From Accumulibacter sp. (GTDB lineage Bacteria > Pseudomonadota > Gammaproteobacteria > Burkholderiales > Rhodocyclaceae), in assembly GCF_023806635.1 (NCBI RefSeq), contig NZ_JAMTDQ010000081.1, positions 1 to 64,000 of the forward strand: DNA of 64,000 bases, read 5' to 3'. This document shows, piece by piece, positions 9,651-38,856 of this stretch. A program made the position numbers and the translations under genes. The notes beneath the pieces were generated by a model, which was not told the origin of the DNA, ran no database searches, and saw only the letters and a list, made by a program, of their open reading frames with translations. Position 1 is the stretch's first letter. Every line of letters begins with the position of its first letter.

Positions 9651-11822
9651 ATGAGAGACAGCAAGATGAATGACGAGATGATCCGCATCGCCGAAGCACG
9701 CCACCACGATCCGTTTTCGGTGCTGGGAAGGCATCCGTGTCCCGAAGGCGTCGTCGTGCGGGCCTATATCCCGCACGCGATGGAAGTCTCCATCGCCGAA
9801 GGCAATCTGCCTCTGGTACGGGTTCCGGATTCCGACTTCTTCGAGTGGCGGGGTTCCGGCAAGAACCTTCCCGAACACTACCGCCTGATCTGGCGCGACA
9901 CCTGGCACCACGACCATATCGCCCACGATCCCTACAGCTACCTGCCGCAAGTGACGGATTTCGACCTGCACCTGTTCGGTGAGGGCAGGCACTGCCACGC
10001 CTATCGCTTCCTCGGGGCGAACGAGCATGAGATCGATGGCGTCGCCGGCATCCTGTTCGCCGTCTGGGCACCCAACGCCGAGCGGGTGAGCGTGCTGGGC
10101 GATTTCAATCACTGGGACGGTCGTCGTCACCCGATGCGCGTGCGTCCGGGGAGCGGGGTCTGGGAACTGTTCATCCCCGACATCGCCCCGGGCATCTTCT
10201 ATCGCTTCGAGATCAGGAACCGGAACAGCGGTGAGGTACTCACCAAGTCCGATCCCTATGGCCGGCGCTTCGAGATGCGGCCCGGCAATGCGTCGATCGT
10301 CACGCCGCGCTCGAACCATGTCTGGCAGGACAGTACCTGGATCGAGCGACGCGCCACCGCCGACTGGCAGCATGCGCCGATGTCCACCTACGAGGTCCAT
10401 CTCGGCTCCTGGCAGCGCGGGTACGAAGGGGAGTTCCTCAACTACCGCGAGCTGGCGCGACAACTGGTCGAGTACGTGCGCCGCATGGGCTTCACCCACA
10501 TCGAGCTCCTGCCGGTCACCGAGCATCCCTTCGATCAGTCGTGGGGCTACCAGGTCACCGGCTATTTCGCGCCGACGAGCCGCTTCGGGACCCCCGACGA
10601 CTTTCGCCACTTCGTCGATCTCTGCCACCAGAACGACATCGGTGTCATTCTCGACTGGGTTCCCGCCCATTTTCCCAAGGATGCCCATGCGCTGGCGCGT
10701 TTCGACGGCACGGCGCTCTACGAGCACGAGGATCCTCGCAAGGGAGAACATCTCGACTGGTCGACGCTGATCTTCAATTTCGGCCGCAACGAGGTCAGGA
10801 ACTTCCTGATTTCCAGTGCCGTGTACTGGCTCGACGAGTTCCACATCGACGGCTTGCGGGTCGATGCCGTGGCTTCGATGCTCTACCTCGATTATTCGCG
10901 CACCGAATGGGTGCCGAACCAGTACGGCGGCCGGGAGAACATCGAGGCGATCGAGTTCCTGCGCCAGCTCAACGCCACGACGCACAGCGAAGCGCCCGGC
11001 ACGCTGGTGATCGCCGAGGAGTCGACGTCGTGGCCGCAGGTGACGCGCCCGACCTACATCGGCGGCCTGGGTTTCGACATCAAGTGGAACATGGGCTGGA
11101 TGAACGATACCCTGCGCTACATCGGACAGGAACCGATATTCCGCCAGTACCATCATGACCTGCTCACCTTCAGCATGCTCTATGCGTTCTCGGAGAACTT
11201 CATGCTGCCCTTCTCGCATGACGAAGTGGTGCATGGCAAGGGATCGATGCTCAACCGCATGCCCGGCGACGAGTGGCAGCGTTTCGCCAATCTCCGGCTG
11301 CTCTATACCTACATGTTCACGCATCCGGGCAAAAAGCTGCTGTTCATGGGTACCGAGTTCGGCCAGGGTCTGGAGTGGAACAGCGCCGGGGTCCTCGACT
11401 GGTATGTGCTCGAGTATCGCTTTCATGCCGGCATGCAGACCCTGGTGAAGGATCTCAATCACCTGTATCGCGGCTCGCCCGCCCTGTACGGCAACGAGTT
11501 CGAGTGGCAGGGTTTCGAGTGGATTGATTGCCACGATTCGCAGCAGTCGATCCTCAGTTTCGTCCGCAAGGCTGGCGACGAGTTCGTCGTCGTGATCGTC
11601 AACTTCACGCCGGTCCCGCGGACGGACTACCGGATTGGCGTGCCGCAGGCGGGCACCTATCGCGAGGTCCTGAACTCGGATTCGCATTTCTACGGCGGTG
11701 GCGACATGGGCAACAGCGATCGGCAGCTCGTCGCCGAGGAGATGCCGTGGATGAACCGTCCGTACTCATTGACCATCACCGTGCCGCCGCTTGCCGGCGT
11801 GGTCCTCGCGCCGGGTGCGTAA
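9651..11822 (+). CDS. glgB: 1,4-alpha-glucan branching enzyme
   Basis: This is a 723-residue GH13 branching enzyme of normal length. The N-terminal CBM48-type domains ([34 protein letters not shown]) precede the barrel. Catalytic residues are Asp405 in [11 protein letters not shown], Glu456 in [10 protein letters not shown] and Asp524 in [13 protein letters not shown]. It forms alpha-1,6 branches in glycogen, opposite in action to the GlgX half encoded just upstream. An alternative start, MNDEM at 9666, is close and equally plausible. glgX-glgB probably form one transcript. Confidence 0.97.
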
Positions 11823-12207
11823 CGCCGTGCAGGGGCTGCCGCAAACGCCATCGCGGATCGGCAGCCTGTCGGACCTGGCGAGGGGAGATTCGCCGGATTT
11901 CACCATGCTGAACGAGCAGGTGGCGGCATCCTGCAAAGCCGCAGCTGCTCGGTGCCAGGTCGTTGGCAGGACTTCCATCGCGACCAGCGATGCCCCCTTT
12001 GCCCACCATCTTCAGTGGGCGCGGCGAATGCGTGCGGCATGCCTCGCAGACCTGGGCGAGAGCCCAAACCGGACCACCTTGCCGCGAAGATTGCCTGATG
12101 CAGGCCGTTGTTCCTGGCTGCCCCCCCGGGAATGGCGCTCCGGTAGCCGCGCGGTTCGATCGTCTGGACGCCCGCGGTCTCCGCGCGCGGTCGATGCCGA
12201 CAAGCTG
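11823..12207. other. Gene-free stretch between glgB and the convergent kinase gene
   Basis: About 385 bases with no recognisable coding sequence, RNA gene or clear terminator hairpin. Confidence 0.4.
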
Positions 12208-15200
12208 CTACGCCTTGGACCTGCCTGGACGTTCCTGCAGATACGCTTCAAGAGCGCGACACAACTCCTTCAGTTCGGCATCTATCCCGGACAACCTCGC
12301 GTCGATCGTGTCCCTGGACGGCTGCTCTTCGACCAACGCGAGTTGCGTGACGAGGCGTTCGGCGCCGAAATGGGCAACCAGGCCCTTGAGGCTGTGCGCC
12401 AGCCGCCGCAGTTCTGCCCAGTCCGTCCCCATCGCGGCGGCACGCAATGCGGCCATCTCGGTGGGTGCCTGTGCCAGGAATGGGTGGCCGATGATGTCGA
12501 TGACCTCTGCGTCAGCCTGCGCCAGGCCGGCAGCGTAGCTCGTCGTCACCTCGACGTTGTGCGCGCGCCGCAGACCGGACAGGACATCCTGCAACTCCTC
12601 CCTCCTCAGTGGCTTGGTAAGGTAGCCGTCCACCCCGGATGCGAATCCTCTTTCCCGGTCGTCGGGGAGCACGGCAGCGCTGAGCGCATAGACTGGCGTG
12701 CGTCGGTCCGGACTGGCCTGTTCGCGAGCACGGATCTCGCGAGTGGCTGAAAATCCATCCATTTCGGGCATCTGCATGTCCATCAGGACGATATCGAATC
12801 GATCACGGGTCCACAGCTCGATGGCTTCGCGACCGTTGGCGGCAAGCGTCACCAGGTGTCCCCACCTGCCGAGAAGGTCGACCATCAGCTTCTGATTGAT
12901 CGGGTTGTCCTCGGCAACGAGGATTTTCAGTGATGCGGGATTCTCGCGCAGTGAATACCGCGTGATCAATTGTCCGGGAACGAGCGGCGTCTCCGACAAA
13001 CCAAGCAACGCAATGATCGACGCCTTCAGCTCCTCGGGACCGACGGGCTTGGTCAGGTAAGCGCCAATCCCGACCTGACAACAGCGGCTGGCGTCGCCGC
13101 GCGCGCCGCCCGACGACAACATCATCAGCAGAGGGCTCGCATTGGTCTTCGCTTGCGAAAGCAGGTTGGCGACCTCAAACCCGTCCATTCCCGGCATGTG
13201 GCAGTCGAGCAGAACGATGTCGAATGGTCTGCCTTCAGCAACGCTCGCCGCATGGACTGAGAGCGCCGTCTGTCCGTCCGGCGCTTCGACGACGTCCATT
13301 CCCCAGAGCCTCAGATGGCGGGCCAGAATGCGGCGATTCACCCGATTGTCGTCCACGAGCAATGCGCGCTTGCCGAAGGCGTCAACCATTACCCGGGTTG
13401 CCGCGTGGCCTGACGCCATCGCCAATGGAACGACGGCATGGAAGGTGCTGCCTTTCCCCACCTCGCTCTCGACCCAGATGTGGCCGCCCATCAATTCGAC
13501 CAGGCGGCTCGATATGGTCAGGCCAAGTCCGGTGCCACCATAGTTGCGGGTTGTTGAGCTGTCCTGCTGGGTAAATGCCTCGAAGATGGCTTCCTGCTTT
13601 TCCAGTGGGATGCCGATGCCGGAGTCGCGTACGCTGAAGTGGATCCAGGAACGGTCGGCCTCCATACGCTCCACTTCGACCACAAGAACGATCTCGCCCT
13701 TCTCGGTGAATTTCACGGCATTGTTCAGGAGGTTGATCAGCACTTGCCGCAGTCGCCCGGGATCGCCAAGTACATGGCGCGGAACGTCTGGGTCGCAGTC
13801 ACTCAGCAGCTCCAGATGCTTCGCTTCGGCCGCGAGCGAAATCGGCTTCAGCAACTCGCCAATCAACGCGGTCAGATCGAAGGAAATCACTTCGACACTC
13901 AATTTTCCCGCCTCGATCTTGGAGAAGTCCAGGATATCGTTGATGATCGTCAGCAAGCCCGCGGCGGAAGACTTGACGATGTTGAGGTATTCGCGCTGCT
14001 CGTCGGTGAGGTCGGTGTCGAGCGCCAATTCGGTCATGCCGATGACACCGTTCATTGGCGTCCTGATTTCATGACTCATGCTGGCCAGGAAGTCCGACTT
14101 GGCACGATTGGCATCCTCGGCACGGGCCACGCTGAGCCTGAGGTCATCAGCCATCCGCTCCAACTCGCGGCTCTTTTCGCGCAGCTGCTGCTCGCTCAGT
14201 TCGCGGCGTTCGATCTCGTCGGAGAGCGAGGCGTTCAGTTCCTGCAGGGCGGTCCGGCGCAGACCCGATTCAAGCACATCTTCCTGCAGCCTTTCGGCCC
14301 GTTGCCGCATGCGGTCATACATGATCGCACCGAACAGTACGAGCAAAGGAAATGCGCTCGCGAAATAGAGGAAAAGCCGCGAGGTGAGGTGGCCGTACAG
14401 GTTTTCGCCGGAGAAGATGGTCAGCAGTGACAAGGGCATGCCGGCAACCGGGGTCCTGACGGCAAGCAGTTCCTGGTCGTCTGCACCGGAACCGGCCGAT
14501 CCTGTCGCAACGAGGTCGGAAGGGATCCGTGTGATCTGGTTCTCGGGGAACTGGACCAGGTTCCAGGCGACGCTTCTCCCGAGTGTCGCGTGCTGTCCCG
14601 GGAACTTGAGTTCCACAGCGTCGTCGGTGATCAACAGTTCCTGGTATTCCTTGCCTGCAGACAACGAAAGCAGGTAGCGCGAGAGTTGCCCGAGGTCGCC
14701 GATGGTGATCACGGTGCCGGCCACGGCGCCCTTGTAGCGGACTGGTGCAGCAGCGATGATCCGCCGATTGTCGGGATCGATGAACAGCTTCGCGGCGGCA
14801 TGCGCTGCATCCTCCAGGGAGATCGCCGCGCCACCGGGTGTGAGAGCCACGTCGACAAGAATCTCGCCGGCGTCGTCGATGAACAGGACGCGACTGTAGA
14901 TCGGCTCACCTCGAAGCCTCTTTTCCATCTGCCGCCGGAAACGAACCTCGATCGCGTCCAGGTTGGCGCTGAGCCCGTACTTCAGCGACATCCCGAGCGC
15001 CCTGTTTGCCAGGAAATTATGGACTTCGGGGACGTCGGCAAGCTCGGCGGCGCCGCTCAGCCGGTCGGCGGCAAAGTCGGCAAGCGCCGCGGCTCGCCGA
15101 TTGCTGTCGGCGACGATGCGCACATCGGCCGCCGTCCGCAGTTGGTCCTGCGAACTGAACGCCTCCCACACGAGCAACCAGGAATAGCCGCAGAAGACGA

Positions 15201-31261: not shown

Positions 31262-32566
31262 ATGAGCCAGCAGCCGGCCCGCTCGCCGGGCGTGCCACTC
31301 GGCGATTTCCTCGCCGCAGGCGTCGTCGCCGAGGATGTCCCGTCGCTCTTCCCGCTGCTTTCGGCACGGCCCTTGCTGGCTGCTTTCGTCGCGCTGTTTC
31401 GCGGCGGCGACGACGAGGTGCTGATCCGCCTGGCAGTGCTCAAGGGCATCGGTACGCGCGCCGAGTCACCCTTCTGGTCGCCACGCGAACTCGAGGAACA
31501 GTTCGTCTGGCTCGATCCGGTCAAGCTCGACACGGTGCTCAAACGGTTGCGCGAGCACGAACTGCTGATCTGGGACGGCGAGCAGCGGTTGTATCATCTG
31601 GCGCCCACCGGTCGCATGGCGCTGGCGGCGATCGACCTGATGCTGCAGTTCGCCGCCGAGGAGGACGCCGAACTCGGCTTCCTCGCGTCGCAGGTCGCTG
31701 CCGGCGGTGCCGTCGGTCGTCTGTCGACGGATACGCTGCGCCACCTGCTCGCGCGCCTTGCCGAGCTGGAAGCGCAGTTCGCAGCCGCCGTCGCTTCCGG
31801 TTCCGAGTTCCGCCTGGTCGCCGCGCAGACGCGACTGCAATCGGTCTGGCAGTGGATGGAGAAGGGCACCGCCATCCTCGCCAGCCTCTCGGAGGAAGGC
31901 TTTGACGATGCCACCTGGCGGCTGGCACAGGAGATCGGCGCGCGCCAGTCGCGCATCATGCGCATGACTTCGGTCTTCCAGCGCGAGCTGGCGGCGATCG
32001 CGCGCCAGCGCGTTCATCTCTCGCAGGGGGGCCTGTCGTCGTCGGAAGTCGCCGCCTGGCTGAAGGGGCTCGACGTCGAGCGGATTGCGGCGCTGGCCGA
32101 CGGCGCCCTGAGCATCGTCGTGGAGCCCGTCTTTGCGCTGCAGGACGTCATGCTCGACATCGCCGAGGCCGAGCTGATCGACCGCCAGCACCCGGACCGC
32201 CGCCGTTCGAGCCTGCCGCCGCCGGCAGCGGTGGCGACGACGCTCGAGCTGCCGGTCGAGCCGCCGCCCGAGCTGGCAGCGCTGCTGCAGGTTCTGCAGC
32301 ATGTCGACGGCCCGATGCCGGTCGCCGATGTGGTCGTCGGCGGCGGCTTCCGCGCGGCGTCGTACCGCCTCTCGCTGCTGCCTCTCCTCGGTGAGGACAA
32401 GGCGTCGTCCGAACTGGCGCCGCTGGCTGCGCTGCCGGTGCGACTGCTGTGGTCGGCCGAGGCCGCGGCGGGGGCGCTGACGGCCGTCGATCGCGCGGAA
32501 GTGGCGGCGCTCACGCCCGGAGTCGTCGCGCCGCTGCCGGCGCGGCCCGGAAACCTGCCTGGATGA
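31262..32566 (+). CDS. jetA: JetA-like (MukF/MksF-type kleisin) subunit of a Wadjet system
   Basis: A 434-residue protein. Residues about 10-125 form a winged-helix-like region with LLSARPLLAAFVALFRGGDDE and LDTVLKRLREHELLIWD, followed by a helical middle, in the manner of MukF/MksF kleisins. A linker rich in Pro and Ala (SSLPPPAAVATTLELPVEPPPE) leads to a small C-terminal domain. The call rests mainly on position: it is first in a four-gene set followed by a MukE-like protein, an SMC ATPase and a Toprim protein. In Wadjet, JetABC form a condensin that extrudes plasmid DNA. I do not see the DUF3375 pattern of type I JetA, so the subtype is open. The start at 31262 is the one that begins family-like sequence; its ribosome-binding site is weak. 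Confidence 0.78.
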   Translation: MSQQPARSPGVPLGDFLAAGVVAEDVPSLFPLLSARPLLAAFVALFRGGDDEVLIRLAVLKGIGTRAESPFWSPRELEEQFVWLDPVKLDTVLKRLREHELLIWDGEQRLYHLAPTGRMALAAIDLMLQFAAEEDAELGFLASQVAAGGAVGRLSTDTLRHLLARLAELEAQFAAAVASGSEFRLVAAQTRLQSVWQWMEKGTAILASLSEEGFDDATWRLAQEIGARQSRIMRMTSVFQRELAAIARQRVHLSQGGLSSSEVAAWLKGLDVERIAALADGALSIVVEPVFALQDVMLDIAEAELIDRQHPDRRRSSLPPPAAVATTLELPVEPPPELAALLQVLQHVDGPMPVADVVVGGGFRAASYRLSLLPLLGEDKASSELAPLAALPVRLLWSAEAAAGALTAVDRAEVAALTPGVVAPLPARPGNLPG

Positions 32567-32573
32567 TCCGCCG

Positions 32574-33215
32574 ATGGACGCTGCACCGCTGATTGCCCGC
32601 CTGCTTGCCCGTCGCAGCCTGCCGCGCAGCGATCCGGGCGTTTCCCGCCTGCTCGTCGATGCCGGGCTGCGCGGCGAGGTCGAGGCGCGGCTGGCCGCCT
32701 GCGGACTGCGCCTCCTCGACCATCCCTATGCGGCGAACGTCGCGATCGGCGTCGACCGCACTGCCGAGAGCGCCGTCTTCGAGACCGAGAAGGACTGGCA
32801 GGCGAGCAACGTCGGCCTGTCGCGGGATGTCGTGGCGCTTCTGGTCCTGCTCTGGGCGCTGATCATTCTGCCGAAGCGGGAACGCCAGATCAGCCGCGAC
32901 AGTCTCGAGAGCCAGGGCCAGAGCGAGCTCTTCGGGAGCTCGCGGCCGGTCGATCGCGACCCTGCGGCGGTCTCCGGCGTCGTCGCCGAGAGCGCGCTGC
33001 TCGACGACTACGGCAAGCTTCTCGGCGGCAAGGCGCGCGTCCGCCAGTTCATGCTGCCGACGCTCGGCCGGCTCGGCTTCATCGAGCGCCGGCTGGGGAT
33101 GATCCATGAGGGCCCGCTGCTCGACCTGGCGCTCGACTATGCGGAACTGGCGCCGCGCATCCTGCAGGGCGCGCTCGGCGACCTGCTGCGCCAGCGCAGC
33201 GCGGGGGCAGGCTGA
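32574..33215 (+). CDS. jetB: JetB-like (MukE/MksE-type) subunit
   Basis: A 213-residue, mostly helical protein, the size of MukE/MksE/JetB subunits. SRDVVALLVLLWALIILPKRERQ and LLDDYGKLLGGKARVRQFMLPTLGRLGFIERR look like the two winged-helix elements by which these proteins dock on kleisin and DNA. It starts 7 bases after the jetA stop, and its own stop overlaps the jetC ATG (TGATG). It is assigned by context and fold-like pattern rather than by a diagnostic motif. Confidence 0.75.
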   Translation: MDAAPLIARLLARRSLPRSDPGVSRLLVDAGLRGEVEARLAACGLRLLDHPYAANVAIGVDRTAESAVFETEKDWQASNVGLSRDVVALLVLLWALIILPKRERQISRDSLESQGQSELFGSSRPVDRDPAAVSGVVAESALLDDYGKLLGGKARVRQFMLPTLGRLGFIERRLGMIHEGPLLDLALDYAELAPRILQGALGDLLRQRSAGAG

Positions 33216-36022
33216 TGTTCCGCTTCGAGACGCTCGAACTCGTCCACTGGGACTACTGGCAGCGGCTCGAAGTCCCGCTCGCGGCGCCCATCGTCACCAT
33301 CGTCGGCGCCAACGGCTCGGGCAAGACGACGCTGCTCGACGCCCTGCGCACGCTGCTGGCGCTCGAGTGCTCGGGGCACGGCAGCCGCAAGCGCGACTAC
33401 AAGCGCTACGTGCGGCGCAATGGCGAGGACTTCGCGTGGCTGCGCGCGGTCGTCGACAACCGCCGGCTGCCCAACCAGCGGCGTCCGTTCTGGCCACCGC
33501 ACCAGGAGGAACAGGTGACGCTGGCCTGCCGCATCGAGCGCAAGGGCGGCGACTGGACGCGGGTCTACTTCCTCGCGCCGGGAGACGTGGCGATCGAACG
33601 CATCGAGGCCGAGGGGACCGAGTACGGCGTCCGCGACTGGCGGCAGCTGCTGCACCAGGCGGGGCTGACGCCGGCGCTGGCGCGCGTGCTGTCGCTCGAG
33701 CAGGGGCAGACCGACAAGCTGTGCGAACTGTCGGGCAGGGAACTGCTCGATCTGGTCTTCCAGGTCTTTGGTGACAAGGAGACGCTCGACCGCTATGCCG
33801 AGGCACGCGCGCACCAGGAACTGGTGACTGCCGAGCTGAAGGCGATGCAGGGCGAGGAGTCGCGGCTCGCCAACGAGCTCGAACGCTTCGAGCAGAAGGT
33901 GAACCGTCACCTCGAGTGGCAGGCGCTGGCGAGCGAGCGGCAGGAACTGGTCGCCGAGACGCGGCCCCGGCTCGAATTCCATGCCCTCAACGAATCGATC
34001 CGCGGTGCGCGCCGCCAGCTGGCGGCAACGCGCCGCGACTGGCGGCGGCTGCGCGCCGAGCTGCAGGCGTGCAGCGACGGGCAGCCGTCGCGACGGCGCG
34101 CCGTACAGCAAGCGGCCGACGCGCGGGGCGCCGCCGAGACCGCCGAGCAGGCGGCGAACGCGGTGCTCAACCAGGCGAATGCCGAGCGCACCCGCTGGCT
34201 GACCCGGCTCGAGGAGCGCCAGCGCCTGCTCGCTGCGGCCCGCGTCGAGGGTGGCGATCCGCTGGCCGACCAGGAGGCCCTGGAAGCGGCCGAAGCCGAA
34301 CGCGATGCCCTGCGCCTGCAACTGGCCGCCGCTGACGCGGAACTGAAGCGGGTCGGCGAACTGCTGCACGAACTCGCCGCCGGCCGGCGCGCCGATCCGC
34401 AGGATGTCTGCCGGTTTCGTGCGGCGCTCGATGGCGCCGGCATCGGCCACACGCTGCTCGCCGAGCGGCTGGAAATCGCCGACGAAGGCTGGGCGAGTGC
34501 CGTCGAGGCGGTCCTCGCCCCGTTTGCCGACATCGTCCTCCTGAACGACGCACGCCAGGCGGAGGAGGCCTTCGTCCTCGGCGAGCGGCTGCGTTACCGG
34601 CACTACCTCGTGCCCGAGAGCGTCGCGGTTCCGCCGGCCGGCGCCGGCTCGCTGCTCGAGGTGCTGCGTTTGCGCGGTCCGGTTCCCGAGTGGCTGATCG
34701 GCCTCCTGCAGCGCACGCAACGCGTCGCGGACGCCGCCGCCGGCGCCCGCCTGCCACGCGGCCAGGACTGGGTGACCCGCCAGGGCTACCTGCGCGAGCG
34801 GCGTGGCGGCCGCCATGCCGCACCCGACCTGCCGCGCTTCGGCGAGGCCAGGCTGGCCGCACTGCGCGAGCGCGCGGAGCAACTGACGAACGAGGCGAAT
34901 CCTTTGCGTGCACGCCTGCGCGTCGTCGACGCCCGCCTCGCCGCGCTGCGCCAGCGCGTCCTGGGCAGCGACGCGCGCCGCGACCTGGCGGCGCGGGCCG
35001 GCGAGTTCGCCGCGGCGGAGGACCACCTGCAGCGCGCCGACGAGGCGCATCAGGACGCCGCCCGCGCCGCCCTCGGCACGCGCCAGGAACGCCAGCGCTG
35101 CGAAGAGGGGCTGCGCAGCGCGCAGCTTGCCGAGACGGCGCTGGCCAGCCAGATCGCCGGCCTGCGCAGCGCGTTGCCCGGGCTCGAGAACCTCGCCGGG
35201 CGGCGCGAGCAGGCAGAGCGCTTGCGTCGGCTGCGCCGGCAGCGCCGCGAGCTGCCGTCGGCTTGGCAGGAGGCGGCCGGCAACCAGGCGCTGGCCGAGC
35301 AATGGGGCGACGCGCGCGCGATCGATCGCCGGATTGCCGAGATCGAGCGCCGCTTCGCGCAGGAATCCTGGGAGACCGACGGTACCGTCGTCGCCCTGCG
35401 CGACAATCTGCGCGACAGCCTGCAACGCCAGCAGCGCGAGGTTGGCGACCGCCGCCGCGACAACGACATGGCGCGCGCGCAGACCGACGCCGCGCGCAGC
35501 GAGTACGTCAAGGTGTTGCGCCACACCGCCAGCCGCTACGCCAGGAACCTGCGCCTGCTCGGCGAGATGGCCGGCGTTCGCGTCGAAGTCGAACTGCCGC
35601 CGCTGGCGGCCGAAGAGGGCGCTCTGGCGCAGGCGGCGCTGGTCGTCCGCTTCGAATTCGATGCCAAGGGCCTGATGGGAATGAACGACTCGGATGCCTC
35701 CGGCGGCCAGCAGGTCGTCAAGTCGCTGATCCTGCTCGTCGGGCTGATGATGGAGGAAGCGCATCCGGGCGGCTTCGTCTTCATCGACGAGCCCTTTGCC
35801 CACCTCGACATCATGAACATCGAGCGCGTCAGTGCATTCCTCAGGGCGACCCGCGCGCAGTACCTGCTGACCACGCCGGTGACCCACAACATCGGGGTTT
35901 ACGATCCGGCGTCGATCACCCTGGTGACCGCCAAGAAGCGTCCCGACGAGCGCTGGGCGAGCCGCGTCGGCGTCCTGGTACGGGCACCCGCTGCCGCCAC
36001 GGCGATTGCCGGCGATGCCTGA
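33215..36022 (+). CDS. jetC: JetC-like SMC/MukB-type condensin ATPase
   Basis: A 935-residue SMC-like ATPase. The N-terminal head has Walker A GANGSGKTT (31-39), and about residues 200-780 are long Arg/Glu/Ala-rich coiled coil with a central globular break. The C-terminal head has the ABC signature SGGQQ (829-833) and Walker B FVFIDEPFAHLD with Asp858-Glu859. The compact coiled coil and position between MukE-like and Toprim genes identify the JetC/MksB motor, which loads on DNA as a dimer with JetA and JetB. It is shorter than the roughly 1100 residues usual for JetC. It overlaps jetB by one base and jetD by eight. Confidence 0.88.
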   Translation: MFRFETLELVHWDYWQRLEVPLAAPIVTIVGANGSGKTTLLDALRTLLALECSGHGSRKRDYKRYVRRNGEDFAWLRAVVDNRRLPNQRRPFWPPHQEEQVTLACRIERKGGDWTRVYFLAPGDVAIERIEAEGTEYGVRDWRQLLHQAGLTPALARVLSLEQGQTDKLCELSGRELLDLVFQVFGDKETLDRYAEARAHQELVTAELKAMQGEESRLANELERFEQKVNRHLEWQALASERQELVAETRPRLEFHALNESIRGARRQLAATRRDWRRLRAELQACSDGQPSRRRAVQQAADARGAAETAEQAANAVLNQANAERTRWLTRLEERQRLLAAARVEGGDPLADQEALEAAEAERDALRLQLAAADAELKRVGELLHELAAGRRADPQDVCRFRAALDGAGIGHTLLAERLEIADEGWASAVEAVLAPFADIVLLNDARQAEEAFVLGERLRYRHYLVPESVAVPPAGAGSLLEVLRLRGPVPEWLIGLLQRTQRVADAAAGARLPRGQDWVTRQGYLRERRGGRHAAPDLPRFGEARLAALRERAEQLTNEANPLRARLRVVDARLAALRQRVLGSDARRDLAARAGEFAAAEDHLQRADEAHQDAARAALGTRQERQRCEEGLRSAQLAETALASQIAGLRSALPGLENLAGRREQAERLRRLRRQRRELPSAWQEAAGNQALAEQWGDARAIDRRIAEIERRFAQESWETDGTVVALRDNLRDSLQRQQREVGDRRRDNDMARAQTDAARSEYVKVLRHTASRYARNLRLLGEMAGVRVEVELPPLAAEEGALAQAALVVRFEFDAKGLMGMNDSDASGGQQVVKSLILLVGLMMEEAHPGGFVFIDEPFAHLDIMNIERVSAFLRATRAQYLLTTPVTHNIGVYDPASITLVTAKKRPDERWASRVGVLVRAPAAATAIAGDA

Positions 36023-37193
36023 ACAAATCGAGTGGCTTGGCGCCGGCCCGCCGTGGCGGCGGCGCCGGCGCCGCTTCGACGGGCCGCGCGGGGCCGCCGA
36101 CACCCTGCCGGCCGAGCGCCGCGCACTGCTCGCGCGCTGGCTGCGCCGTGGCGGCAGGAGCTACTGGGAGACCCTGGCGGGCGATGCCGGCAAGGCCTAT
36201 CCGCTGGCGCAGGCGCTTCTCGAATGGCTCGTGCAGGGCGGCTGGGCGGTGCTCGACGAAGAACTGCGCGGGCAGGGCTGGTGGCCGCGCCAGGTCGAAA
36301 TCGTCGATCCCGGGGCGTTGCGGACGGCGCTTGGTCTGCCCGATCCGCAGGCCGCGCGGCAGGCCTGGGAGAGCGCCGAACGCACGCACTTCGTGCATCC
36401 CGAACTGCTCGCCGCGGCCGAAGCACTGGCCGCGCTGCCGCCGGCGCGGGCGCTGCGCCGCCTGGCGCTCCTCGAACGCCTCGATTCCTGGCAGGGCGAA
36501 GAACGCAGCGGCACGCGCCGCGATTTCGCCTGGTTCGCCCGCGGCGATACGAAGAGCATCAGCGAGGCCGAGTGGAACTGGCTGGCCGAGCACTGCGACC
36601 TCGCCGGCTTCGGCATCAGCGGCCATACGCCGCAGCTCCTGATCGCCGCACCCGTGCTGCTGCATGTACAGTTGCCGGGACGCCGCATCGCCAGCATCGC
36701 GCTCGATGCCGCGGCCGACTGGATCGGCCTCACCCCGGCGACGGTTGCCGCCATCGTCGGTGCCGATGCCTGTCTGCGCTGCTGGCGGCTGGTCGAGAAC
36801 CGCAGCAGTTTCGAGCGCCTCGCCCGGCAGCGTCCGTTCGGCGACGGCGTCGTCTGGCTGCCCGGCTTTCCGCCGGGCTGGTGGCGGACGGCGATGGCGC
36901 GCCTGCTTGCCTGCGCACCGGCAGCGGCCGACATCGCCTGCGACCCCGACCCGGCCGGCATCGCCATCGCGCTCGAGGCCGGACATATCTGGGAAGCCGC
37001 CGGTCTCGCCTGGCAGGCGCCGGAAATGGCTGCCGCGCGCCTGCACGGCCTGCCGCAACGCAAGCCGCTGACCGAGGCCGATCGCCGGCAGCTCGCACGG
37101 CTGCGCGCCGCCGGACTGCCGGCGACGTTCGCCGGGCTCGCCGCGGCGCTCGACGAGCTGGGCGAGAAGGGCGAGCAGGAGGGCTATCTGTGA
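36015..37193 (+). CDS. jetD: JetD-like Toprim nuclease subunit
   Basis: A 392-residue protein. The C-terminal half has a Toprim core: Glu261 in LVENRSSFERLA and the Asp310-x-Asp312 pair in ACDPDPAGIAIA. Upstream, RDFAWFARGDTKSISEAEWNWL resembles the R-D-F...GD-(S/T)-K block of the DUF2220 region of JetD/MksG. The N-terminal half, with a basic start (WRRRRRRFDGPRG), would be the arm domain. JetD is the subunit that cleaves DNA held by the JetABC motor. An upstream TTG at 36006 is possible, but the ATG at 36015 is more likely. It overlaps jetC, and its stop overlaps the next gene. Confidence 0.8.
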   Translation: MPEQIEWLGAGPPWRRRRRRFDGPRGAADTLPAERRALLARWLRRGGRSYWETLAGDAGKAYPLAQALLEWLVQGGWAVLDEELRGQGWWPRQVEIVDPGALRTALGLPDPQAARQAWESAERTHFVHPELLAAAEALAALPPARALRRLALLERLDSWQGEERSGTRRDFAWFARGDTKSISEAEWNWLAEHCDLAGFGISGHTPQLLIAAPVLLHVQLPGRRIASIALDAAADWIGLTPATVAAIVGADACLRCWRLVENRSSFERLARQRPFGDGVVWLPGFPPGWWRTAMARLLACAPAAADIACDPDPAGIAIALEAGHIWEAAGLAWQAPEMAAARLHGLPQRKPLTEADRRQLARLRAAGLPATFAGLAAALDELGEKGEQEGYL

Positions 37194-37621
37194 TGGCGTC
37201 GCCGCCGGACGCGACGGCGGGCAAGCTCTTCGCCGGTCTGCCGCCGATCGGCGAGGCTGGCGAGCAGTTCGTGCAGCTCGTTCAGCGAAGCGGTCTGCTA
37301 ATCGAGCGCATCGTCTCGAGCGGCCAGGCGAGTCCGCCCGGTTTCTGGTACGACCAGCCAGAGGCGGAATGGGTGCTGCTGCTGCAGGGCGAGGCGCTGC
37401 TGCGCTTCGCCGACGAAGACGAGGCGCGCCGCCTGCAGGCCGGTGACTGGCTGGACATCGCCGCACACCGTCGCCACCGCGTCGAGTGGACGGCGCCCGA
37501 TCGCCTGACGATCTGGCTGGCGGTGTTCTACGGCGACGAAGGCAGGCATCCGGCCGAGGCCGGACGACAGCGGTGTGAAGCCAGCACCGAATGCCTCCGT
37601 CCAAGCGGTGAAGTGGTCTAA
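37193..37621 (+). CDS. Cupin-domain protein coupled to jetD, C-terminus altered by an IS
   Basis: The ATG at 37193 overlaps the jetD stop (TGATG). The 142-residue product has a single cupin barrel: GFWYDQPEAEWVLLLQGEALLRFADE, GDWLDIAAHRRHRVEWT and LTIWLAVFYGD. Cupin sequence ends near residue 115. The last 27 residues (GRHPAEAGRQRCEASTECLR onward) look foreign, and the terminal GTG-GTC-TAA comes from the left end of the IS3-family element. The native end was probably lost. Overlap with jetD suggests co-expression, but whether it belongs to the defence system is not known. Similar stand-alone cupins are common. Confidence 0.7.
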   Translation: MASPPDATAGKLFAGLPPIGEAGEQFVQLVQRSGLLIERIVSSGQASPPGFWYDQPEAEWVLLLQGEALLRFADEDEARRLQAGDWLDIAAHRRHRVEWTAPDRLTIWLAVFYGDEGRHPAEAGRQRCEASTECLRPSGEVV

Positions 37622-37642
37622 TTTCGCTGGACACCCCGATAG

Positions 37643-38856
<1,214 letters not shown>

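Follow-up and report, generated by a model that had tools for sequence, protein, structure and literature searches.

The window analysed here is a 64,000-nucleotide stretch of an Accumulibacter sp. genome (contig NZ_JAMTDQ010000081.1, positions 1 to 64,000). At 31262-37193 it carries a compact four-gene operon that is, by its sequence, a divergent Wadjet/Mks-like structural maintenance of chromosomes (SMC) operon with a JetD-type nuclease. We think it likely that this operon restricts plasmids in the manner of Wadjet, and that its JetABC motor can persist without the nuclease. The stronger finding is not the single operon but the apparent repeated loss of the nuclease gene at a fixed locus across the family, in-place loss of jetD being our best reading of its distribution. 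An earlier note, made from the letters of the window, had read the operon as a defence system; a purely defensive reading is incomplete for the family, in which roughly half the related operons lack jetD.

The four genes share the forward strand and follow the order expected of Wadjet. The first two are open frames for a predicted kleisin in the MukF/JetA role (jetA-like, 31262..32566, 434 amino acids) and a predicted MukE/KITE protein (jetB-like, 32574..33215, 213 amino acids). They are followed by an SMC ATPase with SMC_N and JetC1 matches (jetC-like, 33215..36022, 935 amino acids) and a predicted Toprim endonuclease with a JetD1 match (jetD-like, 36015..37193, 392 amino acids, numbered from the ATG at 36015). 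A 7-bp gap separates jetA from jetB, while jetB and jetC overlap by 1 bp and jetC and jetD by 8 bp. These junctions are as first described, as are the catalytic motifs: Walker A (GANGSGKTT, residues 31-39), SGGQ (829-832) and Walker B (D858-E859) in JetC, and Glu261, Asp310 and Asp312 in JetD, which also has a C-terminal KGEQE. The motifs are beyond chance because they are conserved in relatives. Walker A, SGGQQ and DEPFAHLD are invariant in a 30-row JetC alignment, position 32 excepted, and E261, N262, D310, G315, K385 and E387-Q388-E389 do not vary among 42 aligned JetD proteins, while D312 is nearly invariant (a single column, D or H). The A-B-C order, with a JetA homologue directly 5’ of jetB, recurs by tblastn in 37 of 37 JetA-positive genomes of the same family for which the region was fetched; five of the 42 such genomes, the window’s own included, were not fetched that way, and among the 37 regions jetC is cut by a contig end in G009, G036 and G103 and lies in two pieces in G045. 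The window genome (G000) comprises 4.47 Mb in 119 contigs, and the nearest JetC proteins, at 87-91% identity, are those of A. iunctus, A. conexus and A. adjunctus.

Profile matches and motifs place JetC and JetD firmly among Wadjet-like proteins. Window JetC scores 53 bits against SMC_N (cut-off 40), matches the PADLOC model JetC1 at E 1.6e-17 and has a weak SMC hinge match (E 0.039). When an alignment of 30 relatives was compared with other SMC sets by hhalign, with reversed controls, type I JetC aligned over 878 columns (99.3%, score 180, E 1.2e-20, reversed control 32.6). MksB-like SMC proteins aligned over 377 columns, in the first part only (score 94, E 2.2e-10, control 36), and type III JetC over 73 (score 47, E 1.6e-4, control 25). 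The sole match of window JetD is JetD1 (PDLC00528, E 8.6e-8); JetD1 models are matched by all nine JetD members searched and JetD2 by seven of the nine (best 4.8e-5), and the best Pfam family is DUF2399, in six of the nine. In type I JetD, seven proteins share E271-N272, D313, D315, G318 and E385-Q386-E387 without exception, and the order of these residues matches that of the window family. The earlier note had allowed for an SbcC- or RecN-like SMC protein with no JetD match; what was found is the long alignment to type I JetC and JetD1 matches throughout, with no direct SbcC/RecN profile comparison among the searches. Two PF11795 matches elsewhere in the window genome were considered as a canonical JetD. 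The first (L001) overlaps a longer frame, presumably a sensor histidine kinase, and was taken as chance; the open reading frames at the second (L002) were left unread.

For JetA and JetB the assignment comes from gene position, protein size and weak matches. Window JetA matches no family in PADLOC or Pfam and, in NCBIfam, a single model at E 0.1; window JetB matches no model in any of the three. JetA is predicted to be a kleisin from its position and size and from weak winged-helix and JetA1 matches in a few relatives: among 56 JetA members one matches JetA1 (E 0.0082), and the remaining 55 match no JetA model. DUF4194, a JetB/MukE-like family, is matched by 13 of 58 JetB relatives (best E 1.8e-4), and weak JetB1 and JetB3 matches also occur. 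Type II models gave no JetA match and, among the families listed, no JetB match, and no Muk Pfam family is listed at E 0.1 for JetA or JetB members. PF21980 (MksE), a model that does detect type I JetB loci, is found neither in G000 nor among the Pfam families listed for the 58 JetB proteins. As the earlier note had suspected of DUF3375, PF11855 is silent in the window genome and in the JetA protein; so is PF09660 (DUF2397).

Some results weigh against a Wadjet assignment. The top PADLOC model for JetC is mad3 (1e-19) rather than a JetC model, profile-profile comparisons of JetD with its type I and type III counterparts were not significant (E 0.15 and 0.18), and neither were those of JetA and JetB with type I and MksBEF-like subunits (E 0.046-0.1). 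The profile searches proposed earlier gave matches for JetC and JetD and no confident match for JetA or window JetB; the operon may be the poorly described Wadjet subtype that was suggested, on the kinship of its divergent JetC and JetD, its link through JetA and JetB not being significant by profile. If the operon were an ordinary Wadjet of type I, II or III that profiles have overlooked, this would account for the JetD1 and JetD2 matches and for a JetC that is nearest to type I. We nonetheless judge this reading very unlikely, given JetA members that almost without exception match no JetA model, the silence of PF11855 and PF09660 in the window genome, and a JetC about 200 amino acids below type I and about 440 below type III; a link to type II, covered through PADLOC models and one near-empty genome search, may still exist. 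The short JetC noted at the outset is real, at 935 residues against 1107-1180 in the type I operons read.

We scored each jetC locus as D+ or D-, with or without an adjacent jetD. On a tree of 110 distinct JetC proteins, 49 loci are D+, 51 are D- and ten, at contig ends, are unscorable and left out of these counts. The tree is a quick LG+G4 one with long-branch warnings and a midpoint root, from which JetC rows shorter than 800 amino acids (fetched genomes) or 780 (named loci) and five duplicates were dropped. D+ and D- loci are interleaved on it, often at the same locus. The trait requires at least 13 changes, ten of them forced by starred branches, as compared with an average of 33.6 for shuffled labels; on a PrfB tree (26 D+, 33 D-) six changes are needed. 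A tree of 50 JetD sequences is similar to that of JetC, and JetC and JetD patristic distances are correlated (r = 0.86, 46 loci, L134 being left out of the Mantel test), with none of 999 permutations as high. This likeness fits co-inheritance with repeated loss. In the same vein, seven JetD proteins from scattered D+ genomes of a Zoogloeaceae-like clade form one clade (support 98) whose internal order is like that of JetC.

The labels alone favour loss over gain mildly. An alternative is that jetD was gained many times in place, turning an ancestral chromosomal condensin JetABC into a defence system. It draws on deep D- lineages (Geomesophilobacter, Luteibacter, Solimonas) and on the small gap between 17 losses and 19 gains as the fewest events, counted on a tree rooted provisionally at its midpoint. 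Furthermore, under that root a loss-only model (log-likelihood -49.4) is ahead of a gain-only model (-52.8) by a mere 3.3 log units, and a two-way model (-42.6) beats both, which tells against loss alone. We consider repeated gain unlikely: gain-only is the worst of the three models, JetD distances track those of JetC, and the JetC-like order within the Zoogloeaceae-like JetD clade is not what repeated captures from unrelated donors would produce. In addition, the jetD of L037 has an in-frame stop at codon 48, and its near-identical sister L041 has no jetD; we read the L037 gene as one caught while decaying.

For repeated in-place loss, remnants of jetD were sought with 50 JetD queries downstream of jetC in the 51 D- loci (1.7-12 kb each), giving one weak match; this JetD-like match (L067, E 0.005, opposite orientation) was taken as chance. 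When 150 family genomes were searched with a single sequence for jetD elsewhere in D- genomes, a search that a diverged copy could escape, the only finds were in-operon copies and a 48-amino-acid fragment in G044. Aquitalea pelogenes has a very diverged, long-branch JetD (L134:12967-14121) that keeps E261, D310 and D312 and has lost the surrounding motifs; its group is mostly without jetD.

The motor appears to be maintained where the nuclease is missing. SGGQ and Walker B are kept in all 51 D- JetC proteins; Walker A is seen in 49, contig ends having truncated the other two. Ratios of nonsynonymous to synonymous substitution (dN/dS) were taken from 20 hand-picked close pairs. In nine D- pairs they are 0.041-0.158 for JetC, 0.030-0.316 for JetA and 0.009-0.241 for JetB, similar to D+ pairs, in which JetC gives 0.065-0.202. 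A mixed pair, L049 (D+) and L059 (D-), is higher at 0.25-0.35, and may reflect relaxation after loss, which would count against continued selection on the motor. Within an interleaved clade of 7 D+ and 14 D- loci (5 and 14 for JetC), no JetA, JetB or JetC columns separate the two states; with so few sequences this is weak evidence. ScpA is present in 22 of 22 genomes tested, and JetABC would therefore be a second condensin; by analogy with MksBEF, D- JetABC may organise the chromosome or another replicon.

Two further observations concern operon integrity. In G045 (L052:2123-3098) jetC is in two pieces, lacking query residues ~117-721 (most of the coiled coil and the hinge), beside intact jetA, jetB and jetD; either the motor has decayed while the nuclease stayed intact, or the assembly is at fault. 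Several relatives also have small genes within the operon, in the jetB-jetC or the jetC-jetD interval (L037:7846-8519 and 11573-12210; L054:835-1523, in oriented coordinates; L043:4039-4422; L067:7863-8450). We take these to resemble toxin-antitoxin modules: a nucleotidyltransferase/HEPN pair, a PIN-type toxin with its antitoxin and a HigBA-like module.

Distribution was examined first among near relatives of the window genome. JetA occurs in 42 of 150 same-family genomes and 20 of 68 genera (G059 being a weak member, 4.2e-4), and in none of three other sampled genomes of the window’s genus; JetD occurs in 11 of the 150, the G044 fragment not being counted. In a class-wide sample JetA was found in 4 of 369 genomes, one of them weak. 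Type I Wadjet (PF11855) was found in 11 of 114 class genomes, 10 above cut-off, and type III (PF09660) in 3 of 321, 2 above cut-off. A search for the JetB3 family matched no genome anywhere and is hence uninformative. A scan of genome contigs produced 553 candidate stretches; 521 were JetC relatives, and the best 80 of these 521 were kept. In the open-licence literature we found no paper joining Wadjet with Accumulibacter, or a condensin with prfB and lysS.

Most relatives share a chromosomal site, flanked by genes that we take, from their sequences, to be prfB, lysS, recJ and mnmC. For 67 of the 100 scorable jetC loci (31 of 49 D+, 36 of 51 D-) the stretch that was fetched includes prfB or lysS, and 36 loci (17 D+, 19 D-) have prfB upstream and lysS downstream, among them Sideroxydans, Thiobacillus, Methylotenera, Sulfuricella, Thauera and Niveibacterium records; the prfB-lysS site is also seen in Gallionella records. 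Some of the other 33 stretches are too short to judge (e.g. L063, L082, L108), and jetC is clearly away from prfB and lysS in Accumulibacter, Chromobacterium, Luteibacter, Solimonas and L119-L121. Distances of JetC and linked PrfB are correlated (r = 0.78 over 65 loci, a value that no permutation out of 999 reached), and the operon is therefore largely inherited with the chromosome. A plasmid-borne family was rejected: among 72,556 plasmid records JetC was found in two, JetD in three and JetB in one. The two JetC-like matches are incomplete pieces on Variovorax plasmids (NZ_LR594690.1, NZ_LR594663.1), both of which also carry JetD-like matches. Viral origin was likewise set aside, no viral contig having matched in one scan with JetC alone.

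The fixed site, inheritance with the chromosome and rarity on plasmids would also suit a chromosome-maintenance SMC complex, in which JetD did housekeeping, such as decatenation or repair, in place of anti-plasmid defence. For the family as a whole we find this quite unlikely. Roughly half of the loci dispense with the nuclease, and JetD dN/dS (0.145-0.268, eight D+ pairs) exceeds that of JetC in seven of the eight pairs compared, as for a gene in conflict. Moreover, known JetD relatives restrict plasmids, as reviewed in PMC10586767.

The earlier note had also pointed to insertion sequence (IS) elements and ‘junk’ downstream as signs of a mobile defence region. An IS is indeed present, its first open reading frame (ORF), presumably an IS3-family orfA, starting at 37673. 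The ‘junk’ label is not borne out, and neither is mobility: most relatives sit at the prfB-lysS locus, and three other Accumulibacter match the operon and its flanks collinearly between ~23.4 and 37.5 kb, interrupted by a gap in A. adjunctus, up to the start of the IS. Within that group the operon is not a recent mobile insertion. Relative to the three other Accumulibacter, the IS disrupts only the tail of the next gene (window 37193-37680), a small forward-strand ORF at 37193..37621 that overlaps the jetD stop by 1 nt and looks cupin-like. It is kept at 129-131 amino acids in the three others, and among 110 JetC-tree loci only four Accumulibacter match it at E 1e-4; it probably lies outside the SMC system.

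Gene content, motifs, locus, distribution, tree congruence and selection are what the data show; loop extrusion, cleavage, plasmid restriction and the condensin role we infer from homology to type I Wadjet and by analogy with MksBEF, and that jetD was lost rather than gained is likewise an inference. In type I Wadjet, according to a 2023 review, JetABC extrudes loops and the full extrusion of small circles lets JetD cut (PMC10586767; see also PMC10123090, PMC10512200, PMC12287153, PMC7251935). By analogy, the JetA kleisin and dimers of the KITE protein JetB would close JetC dimers, which would use ATP to extrude DNA loops. On a small circle extrusion would run to completion, and the stalled complex would license JetD, a predicted Toprim (Top6A/Spo11-like) nuclease with E261, D310 and D312 as putative metal ligands, to cut. 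Across the betaproteobacterial family more widely, JetABC, mostly at prfB-lysS, would be passed on with the chromosome; repeated in-place loss of jetD would leave a JetABC motor that selection keeps as a second condensin of the MksBEF type, alongside Smc-ScpAB. One published result counts against the defensive role: deletion of a type III-like Wadjet in Cupriavidus gave no plasmid phenotype (PMC12645576), and therefore even bona fide systems can apparently be silent.

The 2023 review proposes that MksBEF condensins derive from Wadjet through loss of JetD (PMC10586767). Tentatively, and as a nearly balanced call, we suggest that across betaproteobacteria one vertically inherited SMC machine at prfB-lysS switches between plasmid-cutting defence and a nuclease-free organiser of the chromosome or another replicon as jetD is lost or regained, JetABC showing no detectable compensation; the nuclease would then be a detachable module, so that conversion of Wadjet to condensin would be recurring in living lineages. 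The D+ and D- loci form a natural series for this conversion and, as close relatives with and without the nuclease share a locus down to sister genomes, make the JetD-loss proposal directly testable. If this is true, current defence annotation misses the family, window JetA and JetB matching no PADLOC model.

Among known SMC systems, MukBEF shares the SMC-kleisin-KITE logic, but MukB is far longer (1259 amino acids in L212, which we take to be MukBEF). The MksBEF/MksBEFG systems, non-enterobacterial condensins reportedly defined by Petrushenko in 2011, resemble the window operon in their short SMC protein, 917-943 amino acids in L204-L207, four operons labelled MksBEF-like on PF21980 and SMC length. 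They differ in that the JetC profile match is confined to its first part and the MksE model is silent in the window genome; no window protein has a BLAST match in L204-L207. Type II Wadjet was compared through PADLOC models and one near-empty genome search, with no type II operon set alongside. Type III (DUF2397, DUF2398, DUF2399) is echoed by the predominance of DUF2399 among JetD members, but the type III operons read have a 409-amino-acid JetB and a JetC of 1377-1380 amino acids, ~440 longer than that of the window and alignable over 73 columns. Type I (JetABCD: DUF3375, DUF4194, JetC, DUF3322/DUF2220) is alike in gene order, in SMC and nuclease content, in the full-length JetC profile similarity and in the JetD motif order EN...DxDxxG...EQE common to both. 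It is set apart by the lack of DUF3375 in the window, by JetA and JetB that do not align significantly, by a window JetC ~200 amino acids shorter, and by window-family relatives that sit mostly at prfB/lysS with an optional nuclease. On these comparisons the operon belongs to a lineage separate from the type I, type III and MksBEF-like operons fetched for comparison, and is a divergent variant of the known Wadjet-like kind.

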